From Pusillimonas sp. TS35 (GTDB taxonomy: Bacteria > Pseudomonadota > Gammaproteobacteria > Burkholderiales > Burkholderiaceae_B): 64,000 nucleotides of DNA. The stretch is taken from assembly GCF_009857885.1 (NCBI RefSeq), contig NZ_WWER01000001.1:248001-312000 (forward strand), written 5' to 3'. Positions 16,788 through 30,295 of the stretch are shown piece by piece (within the stretch, counting starts at the first letter, position 1; every line of letters begins with the position of its first letter). The notes beneath the pieces are model-generated. The model saw only the letters and a program-made list of their open reading frames with translations, did no database searches and was not told the origin of the DNA. The position numbers and the translations under genes are program-made.

Positions 16788-17152
16788 GGGGTCGATCCGG
16801 CTTCGACGTGGGTTTGAACCAGAGCAGGGCATGTCGAGCACCAGTAAGCTCGTAAATCCACTGGAAAACCATAAACGCCAACGACGAGCGTTTCGCTCTG
16901 GCCGCTTAAGCGGTGAGCCGCTGCACTGATTTGTCTTTGGGTCAGGTAGGGTAAAACTTACAGCAGCGTCATTTACAAAGAATCGGGTCTGGCCAGGTCA
17001 CTGGGCCAGCTCTTAAATCCAAAGTGAATCGCCAAGGCAGGGCCAGTCGGCCGGCATGCGCCAAGGTTAAAACTTAAAATAGTCCGACTAAACATGTAGA
17101 ACTGCCTGCAGATGGCTTGCGGACGCGGGTTCAATTCCCGCCGACTCCACCA
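16788..17152 (+). ncRNA. ssrA: tmRNA (trans-translation RNA)
   Basis: A 365-nt tmRNA that rescues stalled ribosomes. The 5' end GGGGTCGATCCGGCTTCGAC pairs with the 3' end CGACTCC before ACCA. The tag reading frame gives ANDERFALAA followed by TAA at about 16878-16910, a tag typical of Bordetella and relatives. The T arm is GGTTCAATTCCC. The 3' end is the attachment site for the integrated elements downstream. A minus-strand frame over the 3' end is an artefact. Confidence 0.97.
17129..17152 (+). repeat. attL: ssrA 3' end (att core)
   Basis: The 24 nt from the T arm to CCA (gttcaattcccgccgac then tccacca) recur with one base missing at 28022-28044. This is the standard position for integration by P4-type integrases into tRNA/tmRNA genes: the element carries a copy of the 3' end, so the tmRNA stays whole. 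Confidence 0.85.
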
Positions 17153-17263
17153 TATCACCTAGGTAAAAACCTTCCAAGACCCGCATGAACACTAGTTCTG
17201 CGGGTTTTTTCTTGCTAGTTTCATCCAATCTGATCCATTAAAAACCATCTAGATTTCGGGTAC
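17150..17263 (+). repeat. ssrA-downstream repeat, left copy
   Basis: The sequence after tmRNA, including its terminator, recurs with moderate divergence at 31425-31535: both read ccatat, then ggtaaaa, cccgcatga, cactag, tgcgggtttttt, tttcatccaat and ccattaaaaacca in the same order. The two copies enclose the whole 14.2-kb island stack. Confidence 0.75.
17179..17210 (+). terminator. terminator downstream of ssrA
   Basis: The stem acccgca/tgcgggt with a 13-nt loop is followed by tttttt. It stops ssrA transcription before the integrase gene. Confidence 0.75.
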
Positions 17264-17316
17264 TTTTTGGGGTACTTTGGGCATATCGCCATGTTCCCTG
17301 AAAAAAGTACCCTGAT

Positions 17317-18585
17317 ATGAAGCTCACTGATCTGGATTGCAAGAACGCCAAGCCGCGCGAGAAAAGTTACAAACTGAGCGACGGCAACGGCCTGTATCTG
17401 GAAGTGCGTCCCAACGGCGGGCGATACTTTCGCTGGCGCTATCGGTATGCCGACAAGGATAAGGATTTAACTATCGGCGCTTATCCCAAGATAACGTTAG
17501 CCAAAGCTCGCCGCGCCATAGTTACTGCTCAAGACACCCTGGCCGAAGGCATCGATCCGGGAGCCAAGAAGCAGGTAGACAAGCTCACCATGAAGCTGAT
17601 GGCGAACACTACGTTCGAGGGAATCGCCCGCGAGTGGCTTCAAAAGATGCAAAACCGATGGGTGGCAACGCACCACGACCGCATCGAGCGGCGCTTGGAA
17701 CGCGATATATTCCCCTGGATGGGCAGGCGTCCCATTGCCGACATATCCACCCCGGAAGTGCTGGCGGTACTGCAAAAGATCGAGGCGCGGGGGGCGCTTG
17801 AGACCGCCAAGCGGGCAAAACAGAATTGCTCACAAGTATTTTGCTATGCCGTGGAGACGGGCAGGGCTGAGAAAGACCCTACGGCCTTGTTCAGTAGCGC
17901 GGCGCTGGCGCAACCGGAAAAGCGCAACCATGCCGCCATCACAGACGCGGCGGGCATTGGCGGCCTGATTCGCTCGATACGGGGCTATGAGGGCACTCCA
18001 ATTACTCGGGCGGCGCTGCAATTGGCTCCGCTGGTAATGTTGCGCCCTGGTGAACTGCGGCAGGCAGAATGGGCAGAATTTGACTTCGATGGCGGCGTGG
18101 AGACTCACGGCAAACCTGTCTGGCGCATTCCCGCCGAGCGTATGAAGCTGCCGAAAGAGGACAAGCAGCATAGCGAATTTCACTTTGTGCCACTCTCCCG
18201 GCAGGCAGCGGCCATCCTGAAAGACTTGCACAAAATCACCGGCACCGGGCGCTATGTGTTTCCCTCGCCGCGCACGTCCAAGCGTCCCATGTCAGATAAC
18301 GGCGTCCTGTCGGCGCTGCGGCGCATGGGCTACGGCAAGGACGAAATGAGCGGGCATGGTTTCCGGGCGATGGCGCGTACCGCCATCGAGGAACAGTTGC
18401 ATATTGATCCCAAGTACGTCGAATTGCAGCTTGGGCATGCCGTCAAGGATGCCAACGGGCGGGCCTACAACCGCACCAAGTTTATCAAGGAGCGCATCGA
18501 TATGATGCAGAAATGGGCCGACTATCTGGATAAGCTGGCAGATGGCAAGGACAACGTGACACCGATTCGCAGTACCGCCGCCTGA
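17317..18585 (+). CDS. int: tyrosine integrase, P4 type (DUF4102)
   Basis: A 422-residue site-specific recombinase. The N-terminal DUF4102 arm-binding domain (about 1-90) contains YKLSDGNGLYLEVRPNG and LTIGAYPKITLAKAR. A SAM-like core-binding domain spans about 105-190. The catalytic domain holds Arg (MLRPGELRQAEW, about 241), HxxR (GHGFRAMART, about 346), His (LQLGHAV, about 373) and Tyr (RAYNRTKF, about 385). The gene lies 165 nt after the ssrA 3' end and reads away from it, the normal layout for an integrase using that site. Confidence 0.95.
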   Translation: MKLTDLDCKNAKPREKSYKLSDGNGLYLEVRPNGGRYFRWRYRYADKDKDLTIGAYPKITLAKARRAIVTAQDTLAEGIDPGAKKQVDKLTMKLMANTTFEGIAREWLQKMQNRWVATHHDRIERRLERDIFPWMGRRPIADISTPEVLAVLQKIEARGALETAKRAKQNCSQVFCYAVETGRAEKDPTALFSSAALAQPEKRNHAAITDAAGIGGLIRSIRGYEGTPITRAALQLAPLVMLRPGELRQAEWAEFDFDGGVETHGKPVWRIPAERMKLPKEDKQHSEFHFVPLSRQAAAILKDLHKITGTGRYVFPSPRTSKRPMSDNGVLSALRRMGYGKDEMSGHGFRAMARTAIEEQLHIDPKYVELQLGHAVKDANGRAYNRTKFIKERIDMMQKWADYLDKLADGKDNVTPIRSTAA

Positions 18586-18667
18586 CGGATTCAGGCAAAG
18601 ACGGGCCGAACGGTAGTATCAGTACCGAACGACCCTGACCATCATTCACTGACTAGGAGTAATAACG

Positions 18668-18904
18668 ATGGCTAACGAAAATCTTACTATAGATGTCCGT
18701 GTTTCCATGGCGGACCTGGAGCGGAAAGCATGGGCTATCAGCAACGTTCTTCAAACTCTTTATGCCGCGTTGCCTGATGACGCGGCGGATAGTGCAGTAC
18801 CTACTCGGTGTCTAATTTCAACCTTGTTTGATATGGCCGAAGAACTGGCTACAAATTTAGGTGATTTTGAGAGCACACACCGCATTGCAATAAAGGGGGC
18901 GTGA
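18668..18904 (+). CDS. small satellite protein, unknown
   Basis: A 78-residue acidic, helical protein behind a good ribosome binding site (taggagtaataacg). Content such as DLERKAWAISNVLQTLYAAL and LISTLFDMAEELATNLGDF suggests a helical bundle. It overlaps the next gene's upstream region and the two are transcribed together. I do not recognise a domain. The next protein has a similar layout and may be a distant relative. Confidence 0.6.
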   Translation: MANENLTIDVRVSMADLERKAWAISNVLQTLYAALPDDAADSAVPTRCLISTLFDMAEELATNLGDFESTHRIAIKGA

Positions 18905-18906
18905 CC

Positions 18907-19149
18907 ATGACTATCAGAACAATAACCGTCCCGACTGTCACGATTCTGGAAGAGCAGCACGACGCCTTCGAATTGCTGCGTCAAAAGGCTAATCAGCTGG
19001 ACGCGCTCACAACCTTATGCGCTTCCGGTATTGATAGCCTTGATGGTTCGTATCACGAATACGCTTTAGCCGGAATTGCTGATATGGCTTTCCAAGTGCG
19101 GCAGTTGGCAGAGGCAATCAACAATTCGCAGCCCAAAGAGGCCGCCTAA
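18907..19149 (+). CDS. small satellite protein, unknown
   Basis: An 80-residue protein. The ATG at 18907 lies eight bases after AAGGGGG; a GTG at 18901 is in frame but too close to that site. The sequence (VPTVTILEEQHDAFELLRQKA, ending in ADMAFQVRQLAEAINNSQ) is helical and has no domain I can name. It directly follows the previous small gene. Confidence 0.6.
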   Translation: MTIRTITVPTVTILEEQHDAFELLRQKANQLDALTTLCASGIDSLDGSYHEYALAGIADMAFQVRQLAEAINNSQPKEAA

Positions 19150-19157
19150 CCCTTTAC

Positions 19158-19213
19158 GCCAGCACCTACCGCGACGGCGGGAAAAGGCGCAAGCCCAGCG
19201 GTCTGGTGCTGGC
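19158..19213 (+). promoter_or_regulatory. stem-loop between small satellite genes
   Basis: The 9-bp arms gccagcacc and ggtgctggc are separated by 38 nt between two genes. No T-run follows, so it is not a classical terminator; it may be an RNA structure or a protein site. Confidence 0.3.
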
Positions 19214-19247
19214 ACCTTATTGATCTGGACTGTGTGAGGACAGCACG

Positions 19248-19754
19248 ATGCAAGACGACCATATTGAGCGATACGGAGATCCGATGTCGTTTGATTATGA
19301 GGGCTTCTTTGAAAATGAACCGGGGCCGCTCGATGACGGCGTAGACGAGATTCAGCTACGGCAACTCGGTTATTTTTGCCGGGAAGTCTTCGCCGGGAGA
19401 ACCCCGCCTGATTGGCTCCTGAAACGCCTTGCGTATCGAATTTACCCTGTCGTTATGGGCGGCGAATGGGAAGACGCCTTTCATCTTCCGTGGACAAAGT
19501 GGGAGACAAAATATAGCCGCCGTGGCGATCGAGCGATTCGGATTTATTTTCATGTAGAGTGGTTTCGCGTTAACAAACCTGAACGCAATATCACTGATGT
19601 GATTCAAGAGTTTGCCGACGAATACTATGTTTCCTACGAGACGGCGCGTGCTGATTATTACTCAATTCGCAATGCGGTAGAAAAGAAGATCGACGTACCT
19701 ACATGGGTATATAAAAAAGGGCTTTATAAAAATAGTTTCTTGTTTTCAGAATAA
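19248..19754 (+). CDS. satellite protein of unknown function
   Basis: A 168-residue acidic protein behind GAGGA. A C-terminal stretch (ITDVIQEFADEYYVSYETA followed by RADYYSIRNAV) has the look of a helix-turn-helix for a non-repetitive target. The start (FDYEGFFENEPGPLDDGVDE) is highly acidic. I know of no function. It sits between the integrase end and the AlpA-like regulator, where satellites often carry accessory or interference genes. Confidence 0.55.
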   Translation: MQDDHIERYGDPMSFDYEGFFENEPGPLDDGVDEIQLRQLGYFCREVFAGRTPPDWLLKRLAYRIYPVVMGGEWEDAFHLPWTKWETKYSRRGDRAIRIYFHVEWFRVNKPERNITDVIQEFADEYYVSYETARADYYSIRNAVEKKIDVPTWVYKKGLYKNSFLFSE

Positions 19755-19786
19755 ATAATTAGATTTAAGCAAAGCCGCTGAAAAAC

Positions 19787-19833
19787 CATCATTAAGCCTG
19801 ATTTCCAATTAATCACAAAAAGGCTTAATGATG
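19787..19833 (+). promoter_or_regulatory. inverted repeat over the alpA start codon
   Basis: A perfect 13-bp inverted repeat: catcattaagcct at 19787-19799 and aggcttaatgatg at 19821-19833, with a 21-nt spacer. The right arm contains the AGG of the ribosome binding site and both possible start codons of the alpA-like gene. In RNA it would form a hairpin hiding translation initiation; in DNA it would be a good operator. Confidence 0.7.
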
Positions 19834-20025
19834 ACCCAGACCATACTTTTAGATATCAATGCTGTGAAGCGTCAGACCGGCTTTCGCAGCACGCAGACCG
19901 TCTACACCAAAATGAACGAGGACGACTTCCCCCGTCCTATTTCCGTAGGCGTGCGTACCAAGCGCTGGATCGCTGCTGAGGTCGAAGCCTGGATTCAGGC
20001 CAAGATCGAAGCCAGCCGCAAGTAA
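19828..20025 (+). CDS. alpA: AlpA-family transcriptional regulator/excisionase
   Basis: A 65-residue winged helix-turn-helix protein of the AlpA/MerR-like group. VKRQTGFRSTQTVYTKMNE is the HTH, followed by DFPRPISVGVRTKRWIAAEVEAWI, the signature wing and tail. In P4-like satellites and PICIs, AlpA activates the integrase or early genes. Two adjacent ATGs (19828, 19831) are possible; the second is better spaced from the AGG. Both lie in the right arm of a 13-bp inverted repeat. Confidence 0.9.
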   Translation: MMTQTILLDINAVKRQTGFRSTQTVYTKMNEDDFPRPISVGVRTKRWIAAEVEAWIQAKIEASRK

Positions 20026-20035
20026 GGGGGCTGGC

Positions 20036-20254
20036 ATGAATATCACCAAGAAAGCCGCCATCCTGGGCGTGCTGCGCAAGCGCTCGCTCAATCGCTTTGA
20101 AGCCGAAGTCTACGGCGATCACTGTCTCCATAGCACCATTGCCGAACTGCGCAAGGACGGGCATAACATCTTCGGACAGACCGAAGTCGTCCCGACACGC
20201 TTTGGCAAGACCACCCGCGTCAAGCGTTATTTTTTGCTGCGGGGCCAGCCATGA
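20036..20254 (+). CDS. small winged-HTH protein
   Basis: A 72-residue protein behind AAGGGGGC. KKAAILGVLRKRSLNRFEAE and STIAELRKDGHNIFGQTEVV look like a winged helix-turn-helix of the type found beside replication genes in satellites and prophages. Its stop overlaps the primase start by four bases (ATGA), so the two are translationally coupled. The role is inferred: regulation or replication accessory. Confidence 0.7.
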   Translation: MNITKKAAILGVLRKRSLNRFEAEVYGDHCLHSTIAELRKDGHNIFGQTEVVPTRFGKTTRVKRYFLLRGQP

Positions 20255-21348
20255 TCCGCTTCGATCATATCCCGGTCGAATTGACCGACCGCCCGCGCTG
20301 GCTGCTGTGGCGGCATGAGCGTAGCCGCAAGGTTCCCTACAGGGCCGGTATGCCGACGATCAAGGCGTCCAGCACCAACCCTGATACCTGGGATACCTTC
20401 GGCGCTGTGCGGGCCGCCTACGAGCCTGTACGCGATGCTGGCGTGGGCTTCGCGCTGACCGCTGCCGATGGCTTGGCAGTGGTCGATATCGACGGCAATA
20501 CCAGCCAACAGGCAATTGACTTGTTGCGCGGCGTCGGATGTCGGTACATAGAAACCAGCCCGTCCGGGAATGGCCTCCATGGATGGGGGCTGTACTCGGG
20601 CACGCTGGCGCGCAAGGTGGGCCAGTACGAGGACTTGAGCATTGAGGTGTACCAGACTGGCCGCTATATGTCCGTCACGGGGGCCGTCATCGATGCCGGA
20701 GCCTTCGGGAATTTGCATGCGCTGGACGACCTTTCCGGTTTTTTGAGGCCAGCACCTACACAAGAGACACAAGAATCACAAGAAACTCAGGAATCACAAG
20801 ATACACATGTCATTCCTTGTGTCTCTTGTGTAGGTACTGCAAACCTGCGGGAATTCATCCCGAAAACCACGGGCGGCCGCAATAAAAACCTGTTTGCCCT
20901 GGCGCGGTATTTGAAGGGCACCGTGCCTGACGCAACCCGCGATCAACTGCGGGCGATTATTCGGGACTGGCACCGGCTGGCGCTGCCGACCATCGGAACG
21001 GCTGACTTTGATGTTTCGTGGGGCGACTTCATGCGCGGCTGGGAAGCTGTGCGCAGCCCGCATGGCGCTGTCCTGAATGACTTGCTCGATGGCGTAGACG
21101 ATGATGCCCTGCCCGACGGCCTGCCGGATTATGGGCCGGCTGCCATGCGCCTTGTCCGAATCTGCCGCCGCCTTCAAAAGCATGCTGGTTCTGAGCCGTT
21201 TTACATTGGCGCTCGCACTGCTGGCGAATTGCTCAGCATCCATTTCACCGACGCCGCATGCCTGCTGCGGGCACTGGTGGCCGATGGCGTCATTGAACTG
21301 GTCAAGCGTGGCGCAGGCAAGCAAGCCAGCCTGTACCGGCTCTTGTAA
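20251..21348 (+). CDS. primase/replication protein (AEP-type)
   Basis: A 365-residue protein. The N-terminal half has the layout of archaeo-eukaryotic primase-polymerases of mobile elements: PRWLLWRHERSRKVPYRAG, DTWDTFGAVRAAYE, GVGFALTAADGLAVVDID (metal-binding DID), YIETSPSGNGLHGWG and LSIEVYQTGRYMSVTG. After a linker at about residues 168-188 rich in Gln, Glu, Ser and Thr comes a helical domain (FIPKTTGGRNKNLFALARYL) and a C-terminal winged-helix-like tail. No helicase is fused, so host helicase use is likely. The linker DNA forms a large inverted repeat. Confidence 0.8.
   Translation: MIRFDHIPVELTDRPRWLLWRHERSRKVPYRAGMPTIKASSTNPDTWDTFGAVRAAYEPVRDAGVGFALTAADGLAVVDIDGNTSQQAIDLLRGVGCRYIETSPSGNGLHGWGLYSGTLARKVGQYEDLSIEVYQTGRYMSVTGAVIDAGAFGNLHALDDLSGFLRPAPTQETQESQETQESQDTHVIPCVSCVGTANLREFIPKTTGGRNKNLFALARYLKGTVPDATRDQLRAIIRDWHRLALPTIGTADFDVSWGDFMRGWEAVRSPHGAVLNDLLDGVDDDALPDGLPDYGPAAMRLVRICRRLQKHAGSEPFYIGARTAGELLSIHFTDAACLLRALVADGVIELVKRGAGKQASLYRLL
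20754..20835 (+). repeat. inverted repeat with ACAAGA iterons inside primase gene
   Basis: Perfect 20-bp arms lie at 20754-20773 and 20816-20835, separated by 42 nt. ACAAGA occurs four times on the plus strand across the left arm and spacer, and twice more on the minus strand in the right arm. It falls in the low-complexity linker of the primase, which can tolerate such sequence. A replication origin is a reasonable guess. Confidence 0.6.
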
Positions 21349-21360
21349 TGGGAAAGGGAA

Positions 21361-21676
21361 CAATGGTGCAACGTTGCACCATTGGACACCCCAAGGAAAC
21401 GTTACTGAAACGTTCCAGTGGCGGCGCTATCTGTCAACGGCTGACGCGTGAAAGAGGCGTGAAAGAGGCGTGGAATCGGATTCCACTCGGTTCTCCCGCG
21501 TGCGCGAGGACACCGCGCTGTCGGCTTAGAGTTCCCGGCGGGAACGCTAGGTTCTCCCGCGTGCGCGAGGACACCGCTGGCTAATTGGTCAACGTTGACC
21601 GATTCATCTGATGCCAACATGACACTAGTGTCAAAACGACACATGTCCGAATCTCGGACTAGTCCGAATCTTGGAC
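21361..21676. repeat. dense array of unlike palindromes and direct repeats
   Basis: The non-coding gap between primase and capsid holds many palindromes: a perfect 24-bp one (21361-21384), tggaatc-g-gattcca (21471-21485), gttcccg-g-cgggaac (21531-21545), ggtcaacgttgacc (21587-21600), tgacactagtgtca (21620-21633), gtccga-atc-tcggac (21646-21660) and tcggactagtccga (21654-21667). It also holds a 28-bp direct repeat (21489-21516 and 21550-21577), an 11-bp tandem pair (21446-21467) and a 16-bp tandem near-repeat (21645-21676). The gap 21349-21756 has no gene. Confidence 0.75.
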
Positions 21677-21756
21677 AGGGCGTGAAAACAACTTTCCATT
21701 AAGACATACGCGGTATTTATAGAACTGCAATTGCAAACTTCTATGGATATCCAAAC

Positions 21757-22989
21757 ATGACACTCTCCGAAATCCGCGAATCCCGCGCAGGCAAGGTAGC
21801 CGAAATGCGCGCCATGCTGGCCAAAGCCGACACCGAAAAGCGCAGCCTGAACGACGGCGAGAAAACCGCCTTCGACAAGCTGAAAGCCGAAGTCACCGAC
21901 CTTGAAGGCCAGGAACAGCGCCAGCAATTCATTGACGACATGGAGCGCCGCGCAGTGGGCGAGCCTGTGGGCGACAAGTCCTTCTCCCAGCTTGAACAGC
22001 GCGTCAGTGTGCTGGACGTGATCCGGGCGCAGATGGAAGGCCGTGCTGTCTCTGGCGCTGCTGCCGAGTACACGGCCGAAACTGAACGCCGTACAGGGCG
22101 CAAGGCTCAAGGCGCATTCGTGCCCCTGTCGGCCATCGAACAGCGCGTCACGACCACCACCACGGCGGGCGAGATTGTCCCGACGATCCACCGTCCCGAC
22201 CAGTACATTGAACCGTTCCGCAATTCCCTGCTGGCGCGCCGCCTGGGCGTGCGTGTCCTGTCGGGCCTGACGGGCAATCTGTCTATCCCCAAACACGGCA
22301 CCGGGACTACTGTCGGATGGGTGGCCGAGAATACCGCGCTGACCCCTTCGGACATGACCTTCGATAGCGTCACCCTGGCGCCCAAGCACGCGGGCGGCCT
22401 GACGGAAATGAGCCGTCAGCTTATCCAGCAAAGCTCCCCTGACATTGAACAACTGGTTCGCGCTGATCTGTCGGCCATGCTGGCTCAAGCCATCGATTCG
22501 GCCCTGATCCTGGGCGGGGGCACCAACGAACCGAAGGGCGTTCTGTCCACGGTCGGCATTCAGACCGCCTCGCTGGCAACGCTCAATTGGGCTGCCGTGC
22601 TGGAAATGATCGAACTGGCCGAACTGGCGAACGCACCCGTTACAAGCTGGCTGACCAGCCCGAAGGTCAAGACCAAGCTGGCCTCGACGCTCAAGAGCAC
22701 CACCGCCGGCAGTCAATACCTGCTGGAAGGCGGCTCGATGGCTGACCGCGCCGTCTACAGCACCAACCAAGTCCCGGAAAAGACCGGCGTGCCGAATACG
22801 GGCCGCATCATCCTGGGCGACTGGACGCAGGTACTGCTGGGCATCTGGTCGGAAGTCGATATCCTGGTCAACCCGTTTGCTGAGACTGCCTACAACAAGG
22901 GCAATGTCCTGGTGCGGGCCATGTCCACGGTTGACGCAGCGGTACGGCACCCGAAAGCCTTCGTGGTTGCCGACGATGTGACTCTGTAA
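21757..22989 (+). CDS. major capsid protein, HK97 family
   Basis: A 410-residue coat protein. Residues of about 1-110 form the helical delta (scaffold) domain (MTLSEIRESRAGKVAEMRAM, then KTAFDKLKAEVTDLEGQEQR) removed by the protease. The HK97 coat fold follows: TAGEIVPTIHRPDQYIEPFR, LTGNLSIPKHGTG, WVAENTALTPSDMTFDSV, QSSPDIEQLVRADLSAMLAQ, GGTNEPKGVLST and INPFAETAYNKG-like C-terminus. The order capsid then protease then portal is the reverse of HK97 phage and matches cf-PICI modules. It has its own promoter region in the palindrome-rich gap. Confidence 0.95.
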   Translation: MTLSEIRESRAGKVAEMRAMLAKADTEKRSLNDGEKTAFDKLKAEVTDLEGQEQRQQFIDDMERRAVGEPVGDKSFSQLEQRVSVLDVIRAQMEGRAVSGAAAEYTAETERRTGRKAQGAFVPLSAIEQRVTTTTTAGEIVPTIHRPDQYIEPFRNSLLARRLGVRVLSGLTGNLSIPKHGTGTTVGWVAENTALTPSDMTFDSVTLAPKHAGGLTEMSRQLIQQSSPDIEQLVRADLSAMLAQAIDSALILGGGTNEPKGVLSTVGIQTASLATLNWAAVLEMIELAELANAPVTSWLTSPKVKTKLASTLKSTTAGSQYLLEGGSMADRAVYSTNQVPEKTGVPNTGRIILGDWTQVLLGIWSEVDILVNPFAETAYNKGNVLVRAMSTVDAAVRHPKAFVVADDVTL

Positions 22990-23002
22990 GAAGGTGGCGC
23001 GT

Positions 23003-23539
23003 ATGGCTGATCTGGAAATCCGAACCAGTGGCGCTGTACGCGCCGCTGCTGGCCGCCTGGAAGGGTATGCGGCGGTCTTCAATGCCGAGACTCACCTGCC
23101 GGGCTTTTACGAAGTCATCCGGGCCGGGGCTTTCACAAAAAGCCTCGCTGCCGGGAACAACGTGCGGGCGCTGTACCACCACCGCGACAGCGAACTACTC
23201 GCCTCGACGCGCTCCGGCACTCTCACCTTGAAGGAAGACCATCATGGGCTTGCTTTCTCGCTTTCGATCCCGGATACGAGCTATGGCCGCGATCTGGCGG
23301 TTCTGGTGGAGCGTGGAGACGTAGCGGGAATGTCCTTCGGCTTTCGCGTGCGTGAAGGCGGCGACGTCTGGACGGAACGCAGCGGCGGCGAATGGCTGCG
23401 TGAACTGCTGGACGTGGAACTGTCGGAAATCACCGTCACCGGCGATCCGGCCTATCAGGACACGACTGTAGCGCTTCGCAGCATGCCAAGTGTCATTGAG
23501 CGCAGCGACTGGCGCGGGCTGTGGGTGCAAACATGCTGA
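23003..23539 (+). CDS. prohead protease, HK97 family (U35)
   Basis: A protein of about 178 residues that cleaves the capsid delta domain during head maturation. It begins MADLEIRTSG with GRLEGYAAVFNAETHLPGFY. The catalytic His is in RALYHHRDSELLAST and the catalytic Ser in VAGMSFGFRV. DPAYQDTTVALRS near the end is the usual C-terminal motif. The ATG at 23003 has AAGGTGG eight bases upstream; a GTG at 22994 is also in frame. The 3' end overlaps the portal gene. Confidence 0.92.
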   Translation: MADLEIRTSGAVRAAAGRLEGYAAVFNAETHLPGFYEVIRAGAFTKSLAAGNNVRALYHHRDSELLASTRSGTLTLKEDHHGLAFSLSIPDTSYGRDLAVLVERGDVAGMSFGFRVREGGDVWTERSGGEWLRELLDVELSEITVTGDPAYQDTTVALRSMPSVIERSDWRGLWVQTC

Positions 23540-24681
23540 GCAAGATTCTCTCCCACTTCGGCTACGAGAAACGCGTCAATGGCGATCCCTACTGGGAGAA
23601 CTTCGGCGCGATCCGCACCGGCCCTGTGAACGCCACGACCGCGCAGTCTGTCAGTGCCGTCTACGCTTGCGTATCGGCCATCAGTGAGACGATTGCAAGC
23701 CTTCCCTTGCACCTGTACGAGCGCGGCCAGGAACGCACCAAAGCGGTCAAGCACCCCTTGTATACGGTACTCCACGATATCAGCAACCAGCACCAAACCG
23801 CTTTGGAGTTTCGTGAGTGGATGACTGCAAGCGTGCTGGTGCGCGGCAATGCCTTTGCCAAGATCGAGCGCGGATGGGACGGGCAGGTTAGGAGCCTCAC
23901 CCCGATACACCCCGACCGCGTGAGCCTGTACCGCACGACCAACAGCGTCATCTACGAATACACCGACCATGCCGGCAAGGTAGAGAAGCTGCTGGCCGAT
24001 GAAGTATTCCATCTGAAGCACCGGGCGGGCGATGAAGTCCTGCTTGGCGTGTCTCCGATCACCGCGAGTCGGGAGACGATCGAGCTATCCATCAGTGAGC
24101 GAAACCACGGCAACGCCACGTTTACGAACGGGGCCAGGCTGTCGGGGATACTGAAGTTTCCGCAACTGCTCAAGGCCGAACAGAAGGCCGCGCTCAAGAC
24201 CTCATGGGACAGCCAGCACTCGGGCGGGGCGAACGCAGGCAAGACCGCCATTCTTGACCAGGGCGTCGAGTACCAGACCGTGAGCATGACGCTTGAAGAT
24301 GCGGAATGGATTGCAGCACGCAAGTTCAGTGTTGAGGAAGTGGCGCGCCTCTTTCGTGTGCCGCCGACCATCATTGGCGACCTCACGCATGGCAACTTCT
24401 CCAACTCGGTCGAGATGACGCGCATGTTCGTTACGCTCACGCTGCGCCGGCACCTGCTGATGTGGGAGCAAGCCATCAGTAAACAACTGCTCACCACGGC
24501 GGGCCGCGCCAAGTACAAGCCTGAACACTCGGTTGAAGGGCTGCTGCGTGGCGATGCGAAGAACCGCGCCGACTTCTATAAGTCTGGCATCGAGGCGGGC
24601 TGGCTGCTGCCGTCTGAGGCGCGCCGCCTTGAGAACCTGCCGGCCATTGAGGGGATCGACAATGATCGACCCGAACAATAA
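23533..24681 (+). CDS. phage portal protein, HBE/HK97 type
   Basis: A protein of about 382 residues forming the dodecameric ring at the head vertex. Typical segments are TAQSVSAVYACVSAISETIASLPL, FREWMTASVLVRGNAFAKIE, VFHLKHRAGDEVLLGVSPI, the membrane-like helix region AARKFSVEEVARLFRVPP and FSNSVEMTRMFVTLTLRRHL. The start is ATG 23533 (GTG 23521 is in frame). It overlaps the protease gene by seven bases and the HNH gene by twenty, indicating tight translational coupling. Confidence 0.93.
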   Translation: MLSKILSHFGYEKRVNGDPYWENFGAIRTGPVNATTAQSVSAVYACVSAISETIASLPLHLYERGQERTKAVKHPLYTVLHDISNQHQTALEFREWMTASVLVRGNAFAKIERGWDGQVRSLTPIHPDRVSLYRTTNSVIYEYTDHAGKVEKLLADEVFHLKHRAGDEVLLGVSPITASRETIELSISERNHGNATFTNGARLSGILKFPQLLKAEQKAALKTSWDSQHSGGANAGKTAILDQGVEYQTVSMTLEDAEWIAARKFSVEEVARLFRVPPTIIGDLTHGNFSNSVEMTRMFVTLTLRRHLLMWEQAISKQLLTTAGRAKYKPEHSVEGLLRGDAKNRADFYKSGIEAGWLLPSEARRLENLPAIEGIDNDRPEQ

Positions 24682-25120
24682 ATACCTGCGGGCCATGCTG
24701 CCGCCGCCCAAGGCCAACCGCACCGGGCGCGATGCCGATCCACGGCGCACGATCCCGCTGAACTCTGCGCAGTGGCAGAACCTGCGGGCAACCGTCATCA
24801 ATGAAGAACCGCTGTGCCGGTACTGCTCCGCGCAAGGCTGGATTGTGTCGGCAACGGACGTGGACCATATCAGCGGCGATCCATCGGATAACAGGCGCGA
24901 GAACCTGCAAAGCCTGTGCCATGAGTGTCACTCGAAGAAGACCGCCGCCGACCACGGCAAGGCTGTCTCATGGGGCTGCGATGTGAACGGCATGCCGCTT
25001 GACCCGGCGCATCCGTGGAACAAGGAAAAATCGCTAGGAAGAAATGGGGACAGACCGCCCGGTTCCTCTCTGTTTAATCCTAAGTCCTACAATCAAGATA
25101 CGGAGGTTGATAGAAAATGA
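24662..25120 (+). CDS. HNH endonuclease
   Basis: A 152-residue HNH nuclease. CRYCSAQG and CHECHSKK form the zinc-binding CxxC pair around TDVDHISGDPSDNRRENLQSL, which supplies the HNH catalytic His and Asn. In many cos-type phages and cf-PICIs an HNH protein next to terminase is required for DNA cleavage and packaging. The start at 24662 has GAGGGG eight bases upstream and overlaps portal. The stop overlaps the small terminase start (ATGA). Confidence 0.92.
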   Translation: MIDPNNKYLRAMLPPPKANRTGRDADPRRTIPLNSAQWQNLRATVINEEPLCRYCSAQGWIVSATDVDHISGDPSDNRRENLQSLCHECHSKKTAADHGKAVSWGCDVNGMPLDPAHPWNKEKSLGRNGDRPPGSSLFNPKSYNQDTEVDRK

Positions 25121-25578
25121 CTATCAAGGTATCCGAACGCCGCCCGCGCTCCGATAGCGCCAAAGCTGCCGTACAGGCCGCCCAAAACGCCGCTATGGGG
25201 CCGCTACAGCCGCCCGCATGTGTGACCCTACGTCCCGGCGACAAACCCTTCTGGGACGCGATTACGAAGGCCAGGGCGCGTCATACGTGGAATGAAGGCG
25301 ACCTGATCACCGCTGCGAACCTTGCCCGCACGCAGGCCGACATTGAGGCGCTGCAAAAGCTGGTGGACGCCGAGGGCTACATTGTCGAGGGCAAGATCAA
25401 CCCGGCTGCGCAGATGGTGGAGACGCTGACCAAGCGTGTAGCGTCCCTGTCGCGCATCTTGCACGTTCATGCTGAGGCCACATTGGGCCGCGCAAGGGAT
25501 AACGGCAAGACCCTGGGCATACAGGAGCCTGCCGCCGAAGATGACGACCTGATCCCGACCTTGCGGGCCGTGAAATGA
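25117..25578 (+). CDS. terS: terminase small subunit, P27 family
   Basis: A 153-residue DNA-recognition subunit of the packaging motor. CVTLRPGDKPFWDAITKAR, EGDLITAANLARTQADIEAL, YIVEGKINPAAQMVETLTKR and ILHVHAEATLGRARD are typical of P27-type small terminases. It is coupled by ATGA overlaps to the HNH gene before it and the large terminase after it. It would recognise the satellite's own cos site, which I could not locate. Confidence 0.9.
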   Translation: MTIKVSERRPRSDSAKAAVQAAQNAAMGPLQPPACVTLRPGDKPFWDAITKARARHTWNEGDLITAANLARTQADIEALQKLVDAEGYIVEGKINPAAQMVETLTKRVASLSRILHVHAEATLGRARDNGKTLGIQEPAAEDDDLIPTLRAVK

Positions 25579-27071
25579 CACGCGCCGAGAAAGTCATCCA
25601 GTTTATCGAGCGCTACTGCGTGACGCCTGACGGCGCTCATGTGGGGCAGCCGCTGGTGCTGGCCGACTTTCAAAAGTGCTTCATCCGCGACGTGTACGAC
25701 AACCCTGCCGGTACGCGGCGGGCCTACTGCTCAGTTTCCCGCAAGAACGGCAAGAGCGGCCTGATTGCTGGCCTGCTGCTGGCGCACCTTGTCGGCCCGG
25801 AAGCCAAGCTGAACAGCCAATTGGTATCGGGGGCCATGAGCCGCGATCAGGCCGCGCTGGTGTTCAATCTGGCGTCCAAGATGGTACAGCTTTCCCCGAA
25901 GCTTTCCTCGATAGTTCGCATTGTCCCGTCCGGTAAAAGGCTGCTGGGCTTGCCGATGAACACCGAATACAAAGCGCTGGCAGCTGACGGCAAGACCGCG
26001 CACGGGCTTTCCCCTGTGCTGGCCATCCTCGACGAAGTGGGCCAGATACGCGGGCCTCAGTCTGACTTCGTGGACGCCATCGTGACCAGTCAAGGGGCGC
26101 ACGAATCACCGCTGCTGATCGTCATATCGACGCAGGCCGCAAGCGATGCCGACCTGCTCTCAGTGTGGCTGGACGACGCCAAGACCAGCGGCGACCCGAA
26201 GATCGTGTCCCATGTCTACGAAGCACCTGCCGACTGTGAATTGATGGACGAAGCCGCCTGGAAAGCAGCCAACCCGGCATTGGGCCTGTTTCGTTCCTAT
26301 GAAGACCTTGCCGAACAGATGAAGCAGGCGCAGCGCATGCCGTCGATGGAGAACAGCGCAAGGAATCTGCTGCTCAATCAGCGGGTATCGACGGAATCGC
26401 CATTCGTGTCGCCGGATGTGTGGAAGGCTTGCGGGGTGCAACCTCAATTTGAGGGTGGGCAAATGTGGGCTGGCCTCGATTTGTCCGCCCGCACCGACCT
26501 GACCGCCCTGGTGCTGATCGGCAAGGTAGATGGCATCTGGCAGGTTCAACCGCACTTCTGGACGCCAGAGCAAGGCTTGGTGGAACGCGCACGGCGCGAC
26601 CGGGCACCGTATGACCTGTGGGTACGGCAAGGCTATTTGCGCACGACTCCGGGGGCTACCGTCGATTATGAGCATGTCGCCGCCGACATTGCCGCGATCC
26701 TGTCGGACGTGGATATCCAGCTTATCGCTTTTGACCGCTGGCGCATCGACGTTCTGATCCGCGAGTTCGAACGCCTGGGCGTGTCCCTGCCGCTGGTTCC
26801 TCATGGCCAGGGCTACAAGGATATGTCACCGGCGCTGGACACCTTAGAAGCGGAACTGCTCAATGGGCGCATTGCCCACGGCAATCACCCGGTACTGTCC
26901 ATGTGCGCGGCCAACGCCACGACGACGAAAGACCCGGCAGGCAATCGCAAATTGGACAAGAGCCGCCAGACAGGCCGCATCGATGGCATGCAAGCGCTGG
27001 CCATGGCTTTTGGCGTGTCCACCGGCGAGACGGAGGCGCACTTCGATGCGTATGAATTTAGTTTTGTGTAA
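25575..27071 (+). CDS. terL: terminase large subunit
   Basis: A 498-residue packaging ATPase and nuclease. The Walker A variant SVSRKNGKSGLIAGLLL lies near residue 55, Walker B AILDEVGQ near 152, and the coupling segment LLIVISTQAA near 175. The nuclease domain begins MWAGLDLSARTDLTALVLIG (about 297, first catalytic Asp) and contains IQLIAFDRWRID (second Asp). Length and motifs look complete. It starts inside the small terminase gene by four bases. A 240-nt non-coding gap with two palindromes follows. Confidence 0.95.
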   Translation: MTRAEKVIQFIERYCVTPDGAHVGQPLVLADFQKCFIRDVYDNPAGTRRAYCSVSRKNGKSGLIAGLLLAHLVGPEAKLNSQLVSGAMSRDQAALVFNLASKMVQLSPKLSSIVRIVPSGKRLLGLPMNTEYKALAADGKTAHGLSPVLAILDEVGQIRGPQSDFVDAIVTSQGAHESPLLIVISTQAASDADLLSVWLDDAKTSGDPKIVSHVYEAPADCELMDEAAWKAANPALGLFRSYEDLAEQMKQAQRMPSMENSARNLLLNQRVSTESPFVSPDVWKACGVQPQFEGGQMWAGLDLSARTDLTALVLIGKVDGIWQVQPHFWTPEQGLVERARRDRAPYDLWVRQGYLRTTPGATVDYEHVAADIAAILSDVDIQLIAFDRWRIDVLIREFERLGVSLPLVPHGQGYKDMSPALDTLEAELLNGRIAHGNHPVLSMCAANATTTKDPAGNRKLDKSRQTGRIDGMQALAMAFGVSTGETEAHFDAYEFSFV

Positions 27072-27311
27072 TCCCCGCAGGGGGCTTGGCCGGGCTGGAC
27101 GGTTCGCGTTACGCGAGATTTCCAGACGTGGATTAGTCGGCGAGTGCCACGAATCAGCAAAACCCCGACAGGCGGCGCAGCGTGCTCCATTTCTTGCCAT
27201 GCCGTGCGCTGGCAGGTTTCCTAGCGCTGGTGGCCGCCAACTACTACCAAGGGTCAGATTTCAAATCCATGTGGGTGCGCGTTTGAAACGCGACCCTTCA
27301 AGAGGAATGAC
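27072..27311. other. gap with palindromes inside the head operon
   Basis: This is the only break in an otherwise overlapping head operon. It contains tcgcg-tta-cgcga (27104-27116) and cgcgttt-g-aaacgcg (27278-27292), the latter extended by gggt/accc. I found no gene in it. A cos site, a processing site or a lost small gene are possibilities. Confidence 0.4.
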
Positions 27312-27638
27312 ATGCAAGCAGGCCATCTAACCGAACGGATCACGATAGAACAGCTTGTCGAAGGTGTAGACCCCATTGGGCAGCCTGTCAGCCAGTGGCA
27401 GCACTACCTCGATGCCTGGGCCGATATTGCGCACCTGTCGGGGCTGGAAACCATCCGGGCCGATGCGCAAGTGTCGCAGGTAAAGACCAGCATCCGTATC
27501 CGCCGCCGCCCTGGGCGCAACGTGAAGGCGTCCATGCGCGTGACGCACGGCACGACCGTCTACAGCATTCAGGCCGTACTGCCTAACCGGCGATCAAACT
27601 ATCTCGACCTTATTTGCACCACGGAGAACCCGCAATGA
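27312..27638 (+). CDS. head-tail adaptor (head closure) protein
   Basis: A 108-residue protein of the phage head-tail joining family (SPP1 gp16/HK97 gp7-like). It begins MQAGHLTERITIEQLVEG and contains WQHYLDAWADIAHLSGLE, IRIRRRPGRNVKASMRV and GTTVYSIQAVLPNRRSNYLDLIC, the pattern of the small beta-barrel adaptor. The ribosome binding site is AGAGGAA. It overlaps the connector gene by an ATGA. In a cf-PICI this protein completes the head so that a helper tail can dock. Confidence 0.85.
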   Translation: MQAGHLTERITIEQLVEGVDPIGQPVSQWQHYLDAWADIAHLSGLETIRADAQVSQVKTSIRIRRRPGRNVKASMRVTHGTTVYSIQAVLPNRRSNYLDLICTTENPQ

Positions 27639-27916
27639 TTACCCTCACCGACGCAAAGCTGCATCTTCGTGTGGATGGCACCGACGAAGACCTGCTGATC
27701 CAATCCATGATCGACGCCTCGACCGTGGCCGCTGCCGACTACCTGAACATGCCGATTGCTGACTTGCTGGCCGACATTCCGACGCCGGTACAGGCTGCAA
27801 TCCTGCTGCAAGTGGGCGACCTGTACGCCAACCGCGAGCGCCAGTCCGAGAAGCCGTATTTCGGCAACGCGACCTATGAACGGCTGCTCAATCCGTATCG
27901 GGTAATGGCGATGTGA
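27635..27916 (+). CDS. head-tail connector, gp6-like
   Basis: A 93-residue helical connector of the HK97 gp6 family. MITLTDAKLHLRVDGTDEDL followed by LIQSMIDASTVAAADYL and PTPVQAAILLQVGDLYANRE is the family signature, ending near YERLLNPYRVMAM. It is the last gene of the element: 105 nt later comes the attR repeat. No tail gene follows, which is the key point for the satellite interpretation. Confidence 0.9.
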   Translation: MITLTDAKLHLRVDGTDEDLLIQSMIDASTVAAADYLNMPIADLLADIPTPVQAAILLQVGDLYANRERQSEKPYFGNATYERLLNPYRVMAM

Positions 27917-28021
27917 TTCCCTCTTTTCCAATCTCTACCAGAGCGGGAAACGGGAACATAACAGGGTACTCGACAGGCATGTGTGGCGTAGAATCAACGT
28001 TTATGCGGCTTTCGCGCAACA

Positions 28022-28044
28022 GTTCAATTCCCGCCGACCCACCA
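28022..28044 (+). repeat. attR: copy of the ssrA 3' end
   Basis: gttcaattcccgccgac then ccacca: identical to the ssrA 3' end at 17129-17152 except for one missing T. It marks the right end of the satellite. Confidence 0.85.
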
Positions 28045-28050
28045 ATACTG

Positions 28051-28084
28051 AAACCCCAACCGTTCTCGGTTGGGGTTTTTTATT
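28051..28084 (+). terminator. terminator-like hairpin, also a repeat
   Basis: The arms aaccccaaccg/cggttggggtt with loop TTCT are followed by tttttatt. The same block, from ccaccaatactg onward, recurs at 30558-30598 with small changes, so this hairpin travels with the attachment-site repeat. Confidence 0.75.
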
Positions 28085-28332
28085 GCCTGATCGCGCCGCC
28101 TCCCGCGTGTTGTTGGGGCTTCCTGCGGAAGCCTGCGGACTTCGCCGGTCCGCTCTCGACCCGTTTCTGGGCATTTTCCACTCTCTCCGGGCCATTCCTC
28201 GCTCCGACCTCGCTCCCTGAAACTAGCCCGAAGTCCGCAAAGGCCGAAATTCAGACCTATACAGATCAAAGAGTTACGCGCGGACGAATCAAGCGGTTGG
28301 ATTGCGGCATTGGTGGCAAAAGAAACAAAGAC

Positions 28333-28380
28333 TGTTGTATTTCGTCGGTACTTATTGACTACTACCGACAAAATACAACA
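28333..28380. promoter_or_regulatory. AbiEi operator-like inverted repeat
   Basis: Two 18-bp arms, tgttgtatttcgtcggta (28333-28350) and its complement with one mismatch (28363-28380), end 10 nt before the abiEi start. AbiEi proteins repress their own operon by binding inverted repeats in its promoter, so this is the expected site. Confidence 0.75.
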
Positions 28381-28390
28381 TCATGGCGAT

Positions 28391-28990
28391 ATGGAAAGCT
28401 CTCACCAGACTATTCTGGATCTCGCTGCCCAACGTGGCCTTATACGCCCGCGCGATCTCAATAAACGCGGGCTGCCGACTGTCGCCCTGACGCGGCTAGT
28501 GCGCCAAGGGCTACTGCAGCGGGTGGGGCGTGGTCTGTACGCGATTCCGAACCGGCCCGTCTCGGAACACGGTGCGCTCGCCGAGTTAGCCCGAACGCAT
28601 CCGCAAGCCATCATTTGCCTGCTATCAGCTCTGCGGCTACATGAACTCACCACGCAGTCGCCTTTCGAGGTCTGGCTGGCGATTCCAAATAAGGCGCGTG
28701 CACCGAAGATGGACCACCCACCGCTACGCATAGTCCGTTTCTCTGGCGCCGCACTGACGGAGGGGATCGAGGAGCGCGTCATAGATGGTGTGCTGGTTCG
28801 CGTGACCAACGTCGATCGGACGGTGGCCGATTGCTTCAAATTCCGCAAGAAGATCGGCCTTGATGTCGCTCTGGAGGCGCTACAAGAAGGCTGGCGCGCC
28901 AAGCGCTTAAGTATGAACGAACTCTGGCGCTATGCCACCCTGTGCCGCGTGGCCAATGTGATGCGCCCATATATGGAAAGCCTGTCATGA
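28391..28990 (+). CDS. abiEi: AbiEi-family antitoxin (type IV TA)
   Basis: A 199-residue antitoxin and autorepressor of the AbiE abortive-infection system. The N-terminal winged HTH covers about residues 5-55 (LDLAAQRGLIRPRDLNKRG, then LVRQGLLQRVGRGLYAIP). The C-terminal antitoxin domain contains HPQAIICLLSALRLHELTTQ and NVDRTVADCFKFRKKIGLD. The start at 28391 directly follows the large inverted repeat. The toxin gene abiEii should overlap the 3' end; only a 29-codon frame is there. It lies just right of the satellite attR. Confidence 0.9.
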   Translation: MESSHQTILDLAAQRGLIRPRDLNKRGLPTVALTRLVRQGLLQRVGRGLYAIPNRPVSEHGALAELARTHPQAIICLLSALRLHELTTQSPFEVWLAIPNKARAPKMDHPPLRIVRFSGAALTEGIEERVIDGVLVRVTNVDRTVADCFKFRKKIGLDVALEALQEGWRAKRLSMNELWRYATLCRVANVMRPYMESLS

Positions 28991-29076
28991 ATCAATTCAA
29001 TGTGGCGATCAGACCGTCGGCCACTTGCTGGATGCGAACGGCCCGCAGTGACGAAGCTTCGCGCAGGAGTCCATGA
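28987..29076 (+). pseudogene. possible remnant of abiEii start
   Basis: A 29-codon frame begins with an ATGA overlap at the end of abiEi, exactly where abiEii normally starts, and reads MNQFNVAIRPSATCW. The NVA motif is weakly like AbiEii N-termini (often NVAASVR). It then stops. This is weak evidence, but position and overlap support a truncated toxin gene. Confidence 0.3.
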
Positions 29077-29121
29077 AGGCGCTGTTCCGCCGCCAAGCCA
29101 AGGCAATTCCCGAAGATCGGC

Positions 29122-30255
29122 CTACCCTGGTGAGTCGTTCAGCTCGTAGCTGGTGCTGCGTCCACCTGCATCTGATTTCCGCAGGACGCCACGGGCCAGC
29201 AGTTCAGTGATGTCTCGCAGCGCGGTGTCCGGCGAACACTTGGCGATCGCCGCCCATTTGCTGCTGGTGAGCTTGCCTTCGAAGCCATCAAGTAGCCGAT
29301 TGACCAGCTTCACCTGTCGCTTGTTCAGCGGCGCTGAACTGGGTGCAGCCCAGCGCTGCCAGAACCGCGTCTTGGCCAGTACGGCGTCGAGCGTGTGCTG
29401 TGCCTGATCGACGGCCCGATGCAGGGTTTCAAGAAACCAGGCAAGCCACTCGGTGACATCGAGTGATTGCTTCTGGGTGCGTTCCAGGATGTCATAGTAG
29501 GCCTTGCACTCCTGCTGGATCTGCGCCGACAGGCTGTAGAAGCGCTGGGGGCTGCCATCAGCGCGGGCCAGGAACAGGTCGCCGACGGCGCGTGCGATGC
29601 GGCCGTTGCCGTCGTCGAACGGGTGCAGGGTGACGAACCACAAGTGCGCAAGCCCGGCCTTGATCAGCGGCGGCTCGTTTGACGCGCGGTTGGCCCAGTT
29701 GATAAAGCAGTCGGTCTCGGATTGAAGTCGATCGGCCGGCGGCGCTTCGAAATGCACGCGTTGGCGCCCCAGCGGGCCAGAGACCACCTGCATCGGACCG
29801 GTGGCATCGTCACGCCAGCCGCCCACATTGATCCGGACAAGGCCCGAGTAGCCGGTGGGGAAGAGCGCAGCGTGCCAGCCAAACAACCGTTCCCGCGACA
29901 CCGACGCATGGCAGTTGGCGGTCGCGTCGAGCACCATCTCGACCACGCCTTCGACGTGACGGTCCACCGGGGCCAGGGCACCGATGTCGACGCCGAGGCG
30001 GCGGGCGATGGAGGAGCGCACAGACTCGACGTTGAGCTGTTCGCCCTCGATCTCGCTGGTCTTGATGACGTCCTCGGTCAGCGCCGACAGGCTGGCCTGG
30101 TCGCGCAGAGCCATTCCGACATCGGCCAGTCGTCCCATCAACAGACCCTGGGCGCGGCTGACGTCGGCCAACGTCTGGGCCAGGGCAGCCAGGTCGTAGC
30201 GCCAACTTGGCCAGTCGCTGGCCTGCCAGATGTAGGCGTAATCTCCGCTTTTCAT
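29122..30255 (-). CDS. Fic family protein (DUF4172-Fic)
   Basis: A 377-residue putative AMP-transferase. The N-terminal DUF4172-like region (about 1-60) is followed by an inhibitory-helix motif TSEIEG (matching [S/T]xxxE[G/N], about residue 65) that keeps Fic enzymes off. The Fic core has LHPFDDGNGRIARAVGD around residue 209, with catalytic His and phosphate loop intact. A C-terminal winged-helix-like domain follows (LNKRQVKLVNRLLDGFEGKL, then AIAKCSPDTALRDITELLARG). The start MKSGDYAYIW is assigned at 30255; its codon lies in the loop of a 10-bp palindrome. Confidence 0.9.
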   Translation of the reverse strand: MKSGDYAYIWQASDWPSWRYDLAALAQTLADVSRAQGLLMGRLADVGMALRDQASLSALTEDVIKTSEIEGEQLNVESVRSSIARRLGVDIGALAPVDRHVEGVVEMVLDATANCHASVSRERLFGWHAALFPTGYSGLVRINVGGWRDDATGPMQVVSGPLGRQRVHFEAPPADRLQSETDCFINWANRASNEPPLIKAGLAHLWFVTLHPFDDGNGRIARAVGDLFLARADGSPQRFYSLSAQIQQECKAYYDILERTQKQSLDVTEWLAWFLETLHRAVDQAQHTLDAVLAKTRFWQRWAAPSSAPLNKRQVKLVNRLLDGFEGKLTSSKWAAIAKCSPDTALRDITELLARGVLRKSDAGGRSTSYELNDSPG

Positions 30256-30265
30256 GCGGAGATTA
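30239..30265. promoter_or_regulatory. palindrome containing the fic start codon
   Basis: The arms taatctccgc and gcggagatta (10 bp, perfect) flank a 7-nt loop that contains the ATG of the fic gene on the minus strand. A bound repressor or an RNA hairpin here would block initiation. Its spacing equals that of the second palindrome at 30296-30316. Confidence 0.65.
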
Positions 30266-30295
30266 TGGGCCATATTCTCCGCAAGCGCAAGATAT

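Follow-up and report, generated by a model that had tools for sequence, protein, structure and literature searches.

A probable capsid-forming phage satellite of the cf-PICI type, with a variant layout, in ssrA of Pusillimonas sp. TS35

The ssrA (tmRNA) gene of Pusillimonas sp. TS35 is followed by a run of integration, head and packaging genes, which raises the question of whether this locus is a satellite that builds its own heads or part of another kind of phage-related element. In the window (the whole stretch of 64,000 nucleotides analysed), the island occupies positions 17129-28044, and its ends are defined by the following features:

16788..17152, + strand: ssrA (tmRNA), with the element integrated at its 3' end, on the attL side (ARAGORN; Rfam RF00023)
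17129..17152, + strand: attL core inside the ssrA 3' end (17-bp exact repeat of 28022-28038; empty site in G003)
28022..28044, + strand: attR (att repeat; empty-site comparison)

The att repeat is exact over 17 bp (17129-17145 and 28022-28038) and continues with CCACCA, attR being short of one T; the chance expectation for such repeat pairs is about 2e-4, assuming equal base frequencies. The site is empty in a genus-mate (G003), where the ssrA 3' end directly joins the sequence lying after attR in the window, and next past it is a Fic gene sharing 83% identity with the window Fic gene (29122-30663). As compared with this empty site, the insert is 10,893 bp in size. The exact repeat and the empty site corroborate the view of the first-pass annotation that repeats of the ssrA 3' end bound the element, and an integrase with an att-bounded chromosomal insertion, a cf-PICI feature, is present in the island.

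All the named genes of the island are on the + strand and have intact frames. The features between the att sites, apart from the RNA discussed below, are as follows:

17317..18585, + strand: tyrosine integrase, int (PF13356, PF22022, PF00589)
18668..18904, + strand: orfA, no assigned function (no match in Pfam, NCBIfam, PADLOC)
18901..19149, + strand: orfB, no assigned function (no match in Pfam, NCBIfam, PADLOC)
19159..19225, + strand: int-alpA structured RNA (RF02996; 39.6 bits, gathering score 35.8)
19248..19754, + strand: orfC, no assigned function (no match in Pfam, PHROGs, NCBIfam, PADLOC)
19828..20025, + strand: AlpA-like regulator, alpA (PF05930, E 2.4e-10)
20036..20254, + strand: winged-helix protein, wHTH (PF14090, E 1.4e-5)
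20251..21348, + strand: primase-like replication protein (PHROG primase, E 1e-25)
21757..22989, + strand: HK97-fold major capsid protein (PF05065, E 8e-39; TIGR01554)
23003..23539, + strand: S78 prohead protease (PF04586, E 2e-42; ATG at 23003)
23533..24681, + strand: portal protein (PF04860, E 2e-102; ATG at 23533)
24662..25120, + strand: HNH endonuclease (PF01844, E 8.5e-7; ATG at 24662)
25117..25578, + strand: terminase small subunit, TerS (phrog_5601, E 3e-42; Pfam below cut-off only)
25575..27071, + strand: terminase large subunit, TerL (PF03354, PF20441; 64% identity to HK97-group TerL; full-length alignment with PDB 6z6d, which we take to be the TerL of HK97, the motifs being likewise presumed)
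27312..27638, + strand: head closure protein (PF05521, E 4e-23; TIGR01563)
27635..27916, + strand: head-tail connector (PF05135, E 2e-11; TIGR01560; PDB 3jvo)

Profile matches (Pfam, PHROGs, NCBIfam) confirm each member of the unidirectional set of open frames, from int to the connector, that had been recognized from the letters, with the primase-like gene reaching only E 0.074, below the cut-off, against Pfam Prim-Pol. The cf-PICIs possess an AlpA or Stl-type regulator and a primase-type replication gene, both of which have counterparts here (AlpA, E 2e-10; PHROG primase, E 1e-25), and no Pfam hit in the island denotes an Stl-type repressor. PMC13230959 names Stl as regulator and gives, for TG54, a list of the element's own capsid, protease, portal, adaptor/closure, HNH and terminases, and all of these listed genes are found in the island. 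As first proposed, no tail or lysis gene is found in the island by profile search, orfA, orfB and orfC having no match in Pfam, NCBIfam and PADLOC, and orfC, the only one of the three tried in PHROGs, having none there; the tail module and the phage gene order that mark a prophage of the HK97 type are absent. The int-alpA RNA (RF02996) occurs in four relatives (L022, L025, L035 and L039) as well.

TerLs with at least 60% identity to that of the island fall into 30 non-identical versions in satellite order, with the portal upstream of TerL (window's included, near-copies counted apart), and 12 in phage order. Gene order is used to assign these groups because contig size alone fails to separate them, the IMG/VR contigs of satellite-order relatives being at most 13.9 kb and several phage-order contigs being fragments of 4-9 kb. 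On the TerL tree, in which many forks are weak, the satellite and phage labels require two changes. The named relatives are four from Comamonadaceae, two unplaced Proteobacteria MAGs and one Alcaligenaceae plasmid. The coding part of the element is already present as an IMG/VR contig. Six relatives (L024, L025, L017, L019, L022 and L101) were screened for terminal repeats. Diaphorobacter nitroreducens (L024) has a 15-bp repeat at tRNA-Ser with copies 10.9 kb apart, beside genes that, from their translations, are presumably lysC, tilS and accA, and a MAG (L025) has a 50-bp repeat at tRNA-Val with copies 10.8 kb apart; no terminal repeat is found in L017, L019 or L022, and L101 has only a 14-bp one. 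The contig of another relative (L023; 10,417 bp) has a repeat of 55 bp at its ends, as a circular molecule could give. By BLAST with the window proteins, closure and connector are not found in L025, nor closure in L017 and L019.

The island might be a decaying prophage remnant from which tail and lysis genes have been deleted, as its TerL is 64% identical to those of HK97-group phages (HK97, HK022 and mEp234) and 71.5% identical to the TerL of a Pusillimonas plasmid of 41 kb that resembles a phage. However, the frames are intact, both att ends and an empty site are present, and the portal-before-TerL order recurs with the 30 non-identical TerLs, whereas the phages examined run TerL-portal-protease-capsid. 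The first-pass annotation had held that close relatives within a full-length prophage would speak against a satellite; a search of 50,697 phage records gave only portal and capsid matches below 60% identity (best-ranked portal 40.7%; best-ranked capsid 38.5% over 66% of the capsid), and the related TerLs split by gene order. Decay of a prophage is thus considered very improbable. The HK97-group phages are themselves about 40 kb and have tails; in mEp234, the HNH, TerS, portal, protease and connector share 30-35% identity with those of the island.

It is even harder to see the island as a head cluster serving the host, either domesticated or akin to a gene transfer agent, a reading that draws on the distant similarity of capsid, portal and closure to proteins (Rcc numbers) of PDB 6tba, presumably the gene transfer agent of Rhodobacter capsulatus, but that accords poorly with the island's own int, AlpA and att sites, with the failure to find island genes in the 13-19 kb after ssrA of four genus-mates, and with the grouping of its TerL with HK97-group phages, one record of which notes cos ends. 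Finally, the satellite's terminase might fill heads supplied by a helper, leaving its own head genes idle, which would suit a terminase so close to HK97-group TerL; yet the genes for capsid, protease, portal and neck are all intact and recur across relatives, and this reading is scarcely credible.

The island is therefore identified, with high confidence, as a capsid-forming phage satellite of the cf-PICI type, because of its gene content, the exact insertion with an empty site, the portal-before-TerL order with 30 non-identical TerLs, the repeats in L024 and L025, the terminal repeat of L023, the full-length alignment of TerL to 6z6d and the likeness to vB_KppS-Ant. Counted against this assignment are the failure to find a resident helper, a cos site or a named Stl, as well as the gene gaps and missing repeats in relatives. 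The earlier description of an intact head-only cf-PICI-like satellite at ssrA is upheld by gene content, open frames, empty site, satellite-order relatives and the repeats in L024 and L025. Its suggested dependence on a co-resident siphophage or myophage is not: outside the island, the TS35 genome gives no match to TerL relatives or to PF05521, PF13550, PF04984, PF10145, PF03237 and PF06791. The helper is thus proposed to be an infecting phage.

The cycle would start with a signal from this tailed helper, upon which Int and AlpA would excise the element and the primase-like protein would help its replication. Capsid, protease and portal may form a head suited to about 10.9 kb, into which HNH, TerS and TerL would cut and pack the element's own DNA, while the closure protein and connector would seal the head and present an HK97-type neck for the helper tail. 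The particles would be freed by helper lysis, and Int would re-insert the DNA into ssrA of the next cell. With one mismatch allowed, the HK97-group cos word occurs in the window inside genes only, and no cos site was found; candidate places are the gap of 408 bases at 21349-21756, that of 240 bases following TerL and the joined ends.

The gap after TerL contains a second structured RNA:

27089..27173, + strand: Proteo-phage-1 RNA (RF03044), with a proposed pseudoknot between hairpin loop and 3' tail (58.4 bits, gathering score 42; covariation)

The pseudoknot (GUCGG/CCGAC pairing), not drawn in the structure line of RF03044 printed by cmscan and proposed here, is backed by covarying (paired) changes. 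The RNA is present in 21 of 29 satellite-order loci versus none of 12 phage-order loci, in only one of 11 distant-TerL loci, and on a few contigs of phage size. For model R1, 37 copies were used; 15 of the 21 satellite-order RNA loci belong to its set or share an identical TerL with one of its members, and six are outside (L041, L059, L061, L063, L067 and L075), L041 being a near-copy of a set member. Where nameable, the preceding gene serves head formation or packaging (TerL, portal, major head protein, TerS or closure), and in L035 the RNA is still in place although TerL is replaced (33%). A third helix after the pseudoknot gave no signal in a crude test (36 copies; mean 6.58 of 8 pairs versus 6.43 shuffled). 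Folding of the 240-base gap is not clearly better than shuffles (z -0.97), and no promoter-like site was found there. That this region is cos is disfavoured, as the cos words common to HK97, mEp234 and the Pusillimonas plasmid are absent there and the paired changes favour an RNA. Proteo-phage-1 may govern when, or in what proportion, the late head genes are expressed, or have a role in packaging, and this conserved RNA may help to make particles; as a tentative suggestion, head-encoding satellites and other small phage-like elements would use it as an RNA dedicated to particle making. It provides a testable handle on the control of particle making in such satellites. A literature search under 'Proteo-phage-1' found nothing, and no title among the matches listed names the window's lineage, neither being proof of absence from print.

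Three enterobacterial yardsticks, the E. coli PE15 element at fis (NZ_CP041628, L162), vB_KppS-Ant (LR881103, L154) and the Klebsiella plasmid record CP018459 (L155), are provisionally assigned here to the cf-PICIs by gene content. They share with the island an integrase, regulator, capsid, protease, portal, closure, connector, HNH, TerS and TerL and the lack of a full tail set, and a primase is annotated in L154 and L162, corresponding to the island's primase-like gene. vB_KppS-Ant, whose 16.5-kb record was deposited as an induced prophage, agrees with the island in its head and packaging genes and likewise lacks a complete set of tail genes. L154 and L155 possess TerLs 28% identical to the island's and, unlike the island, a gene with a tape-measure annotation; in L155 the portal match is broken into four pieces. 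The first-pass annotation had also ascribed to the island the cf-PICI gene set and capsid-first order, of which capsid-first holds, but the yardsticks place closure and connector before HNH-TerS-TerL, whereas in the island HNH-TerS-TerL lies between the portal and closure/connector. We know of no statement that gene order defines the cf-PICI family, and as the island departs from the enterobacterial layout, it is regarded as a layout variant.

The Acinetobacter schindleri plasmid pHZE33-1-1 (NZ_CP044475, L163) has the order capsid-protease-portal-HNH-(small gene)-TerL-connector-closure, which is that of most window relatives, and its capsid and TerL are 48% and 32% identical to those of the island; unlike in the island, the replication gene repM adjoins the capsid module and no integrase is annotated in that stretch. 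The Vibrio satellite-plasmids, termed cf-PISP (PMC13230959), are grouped with this module as a comparison system. The HNH-TerS-TerL placement sets the element apart from the yardsticks, and the pseudoknot and the link to satellite-order loci add to what the Rfam entry shows for the RNA. The element is compact (10.9 kb, as compared with a cf-PICI average of 14 kb; PMC10803314), its relatives include Comamonadaceae (Burkholderiales), and its packaging genes stand elsewhere than in the yardsticks, as they do in the Acinetobacter plasmid module, which agrees with the view that cf-PICI capsids arose in three separate radiations (PMC11389934).

The island at 17129–28044 contains 15 genes, all on the plus strand and none with a broken reading frame; they account for about 89% of the island when overlapping bases are counted twice. 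Matches in Pfam, PHROGs and NCBIfam identify an integrase, AlpA, a winged-helix protein and a primase-like protein, together with the head and packaging genes (HK97-type capsid, S78 protease, portal, HNH, TerS, TerL, head closure and connector), and three small proteins (orfA, orfB and orfC) have no match in the libraries tried. The features of the locus are:

16788–17152, ssrA
19159–19225, int-alpA RNA of a curated Rfam family, inside the island
27089–27173, Proteo-phage-1 RNA (RF03044) of a curated Rfam family, inside the island

The contig UViG_2891729039_000001 of IMG/VR (10,600 bp, the same length as 17317–27916) is the coding part of the same element, its genes being 100% identical by BLAST. 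The Rfam search found no C4 antisense RNA (RF01695) within the island; this RNA occurs in the control regions of four relatives (L017, 15603–15692; L019, 9553–9644; L070, 3679–3766; L104, 7694–7779), with isrK additionally in L019 and L104.

Part of the ssrA 3' end is repeated exactly, over 17 bp, at 28022–28038. Among four genus-mates whose ssrA site was examined, G003 has an empty site, where ssrA joins directly to the sequence found after attR in the window and then to a Fic gene sharing 83% identity with the one in the window, giving an insert of 10,893 bp. The gene set with intact frames at ssrA proposed by the first-pass annotation is borne out by the library matches, the repeat ends and this empty site, and the island, which looks complete, is very probably a cf-PICI-type (capsid-forming PICI) satellite. 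The sequence 3' of ssrA differs in the other three genus-mates, and ssrA is probably an insertion hot spot, as apparent integrase-coding sequence, judged from the bases alone, follows it in G002 and G004. Older insertions at ssrA are suggested by two duplicated stretches in the window: 31423–31536 repeats the ssrA-downstream flank (85% identical to 17148–17260), and the terminator that follows attR has a second copy near 30568. Beyond attR lie an AbiEi antitoxin gene (28310–28990), in a stretch missing from G003, the Fic gene (within 28045–31540) and a fragment (within 30590–31030) matching the N-terminal part of AbiEii.

The first-pass annotation had named the same genes in a full-length prophage as evidence against a satellite. 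The TerL is 64% identical to that of HK97/HK022, but among 50,697 phage records neither portal nor capsid has a match reaching 60% identity (best-ranked matches 40.7%, and 38.5% over 66% of the length, respectively), and only 50 bases of the DNA match any phage record by megablast. Portal position, before or after TerL, was used to sort 73 loci (63 from IMG/VR, two family genomes, six named contigs, a Pusillimonas plasmid and phage mEp234), the IMG/VR loci being collected via portal (23) or TerL (41), with one common to both. Left out of the counts were 11 rows that duplicated the TerL of another row, L026, L088, L093 and L096 (no portal match), L038 (no TerL), and two phage-order loci, L094 (TerL 57%) and L056 (TerL 34%). 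At TerL identities of at least 60%, 30 loci including the window's own (L034) have satellite order (portal upstream of TerL) versus 12 with phage order, and a further 13 loci with TerL below 45% have satellite or unclear order. IMG/VR contigs with satellite order and TerL of at least 60% measure at most 13.9 kb and phage-order contigs up to 45.7 kb; gene order is the better criterion, since several of the latter are 4–9 kb fragments. On a TerL tree of 56 rows, many of whose forks are weak, the satellite and phage labels need two changes versus 14 in shuffles, with which a single origin would be compatible. Terminal repeats, sought in six relatives, are clear in two: L024, from Diaphorobacter nitroreducens, has them at tRNA-Ser, 10.9 kb apart and beside genes that read as ordinary host genes, and L025 has them at tRNA-Val, 10.8 kb apart. 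L101 has a 14-bp repeat, and none was found in L017, L019 and L022. The 10,417-bp contig L023 is consistent with a circle because of its 55-bp terminal repeat.

In the window, Proteo-phage-1 starts 17 bases past the TerL stop; in most RNA-bearing relatives it begins 3–13 bases beyond the point where the TerL match ends. Across 37 aligned copies, 98.3% of the hairpin cells are paired, and four of five pairs show paired changes. For a proposed loop-to-tail pseudoknot (GUCGG/CCGAC) the figure is 98.9%, and two of five pairs show paired changes; this evidence consists of four cells in which both sides have changed, and in each of two copies one pair is broken. No shuffle out of 500 matched the combined measures. 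The curated Rfam score is exceeded in the window, in 6/8 relatives and in 6/10 further relatives, six of these ten having already shown the motif. A model built during this work detects the RNA in 21 of 29 satellite-order loci (TerL at least 60%, at least 150 bases after TerL, window's own included) versus 0 of 12 phage-order loci (Fisher p = 1.6e-5), a statistic that ignores kinship, most of the 21 having helped build the model. A general role in satellites is counted against by its presence in just one of the 11 sufficiently flanked loci whose TerL is below 45%, by its absence from both KppS-Ant and the Klebsiella plasmid when searched, and by its location past the neck genes, not directly 3' of TerL, in L063, L066 and L074.

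The exact motif occurs in 39 IMG/VR contigs, three of which (31–42 kb) may be phages. PHROGs named the gene preceding the RNA in six of ten contigs that lie outside the core group: major head protein (L103, L120), portal (L105), TerS (L115) and TerL (L110, and L113, where it shares 42% identity with the TerL of the window); the other four gave no usable match. Under stricter filters, 3/399 genomes drawn from the order, the window's own included, pass the Rfam cut-off. The motif-bearing contig L114 (9,839 bp, 47-bp terminal repeat) is probably circular, and contains a weak integrase match (25%) and a TerL-like gene that shares 82% identity with the one PHROGs names TerL in L110, with no further match to the window's genes.

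The satellite would make its own heads and package its own DNA, taking tails and lysis from a helper. An HK97-type siphophage tail would be the likeliest partner, because the closure protein has a match in PDB 2kz4 and the connector one in PDB 3jvo (HK97 gp6). The proposed dependence on a co-resident tailed phage finds no support in the genome itself, where searches for TerL relatives, PF05521, PF13550, PF04984, PF10145, PF03237 and PF06791 turned up no match beyond the island itself; every one of the six family searches gave matches in at least two of 14 control genomes, and a helper whose tail belongs to other families could escape detection. The failure to find a resident helper has a precedent: according to PMC11389934, the strain that harbours one E. 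coli cf-PICI is not the native home of the phages that mobilise it.

Five whole contigs of 9.9–10.4 kb (L045, L047, L049, L050 and L054) are probably circles, as they have terminal repeats of 77–141 bp. Their capsid-protease-portal-HNH-TerL-connector set is related to that of the window (capsid 46–49%), the window's integrase has no match in them, and L047, the only one searched for an initiator, encodes a Rep_3 plasmid initiator. The same set adjoins repM in an Acinetobacter schindleri plasmid. These look like satellite-plasmids outside Vibrio; PMC13230959, which used its own capsid and ParA as queries, found none beyond that genus.

The cf-PICI order claimed at first holds for the capsid-first arrangement and differs in where the neck genes lie. 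The window's order is capsid-protease-portal-HNH-TerS-TerL-closure-connector, whereas the E. coli element at fis, KppS-Ant and the Klebsiella plasmid (spanning the start of its circular record) all have capsid-protease-portal-closure-connector-HNH-TerS-TerL. A gene annotated as tape-measure protein is present in two of these cf-PICI-like records, L154 (2036–4333; deposited as phage vB_KppS-Ant) and L155 (2582–5989; deposited as a plasmid). Relatives in which neck genes were found have them after TerL, as in the window; most have the connector first, and L035 and L039 share the window's closure-connector order. The integrase of L035 is 88% identical to the window's, yet the TerL at the same place is only 33% identical, which suggests that the packaging genes have been exchanged. 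The Acinetobacter plasmid pHZE33-1-1 has the layout of the window, with HNH and TerL ahead of the neck genes.
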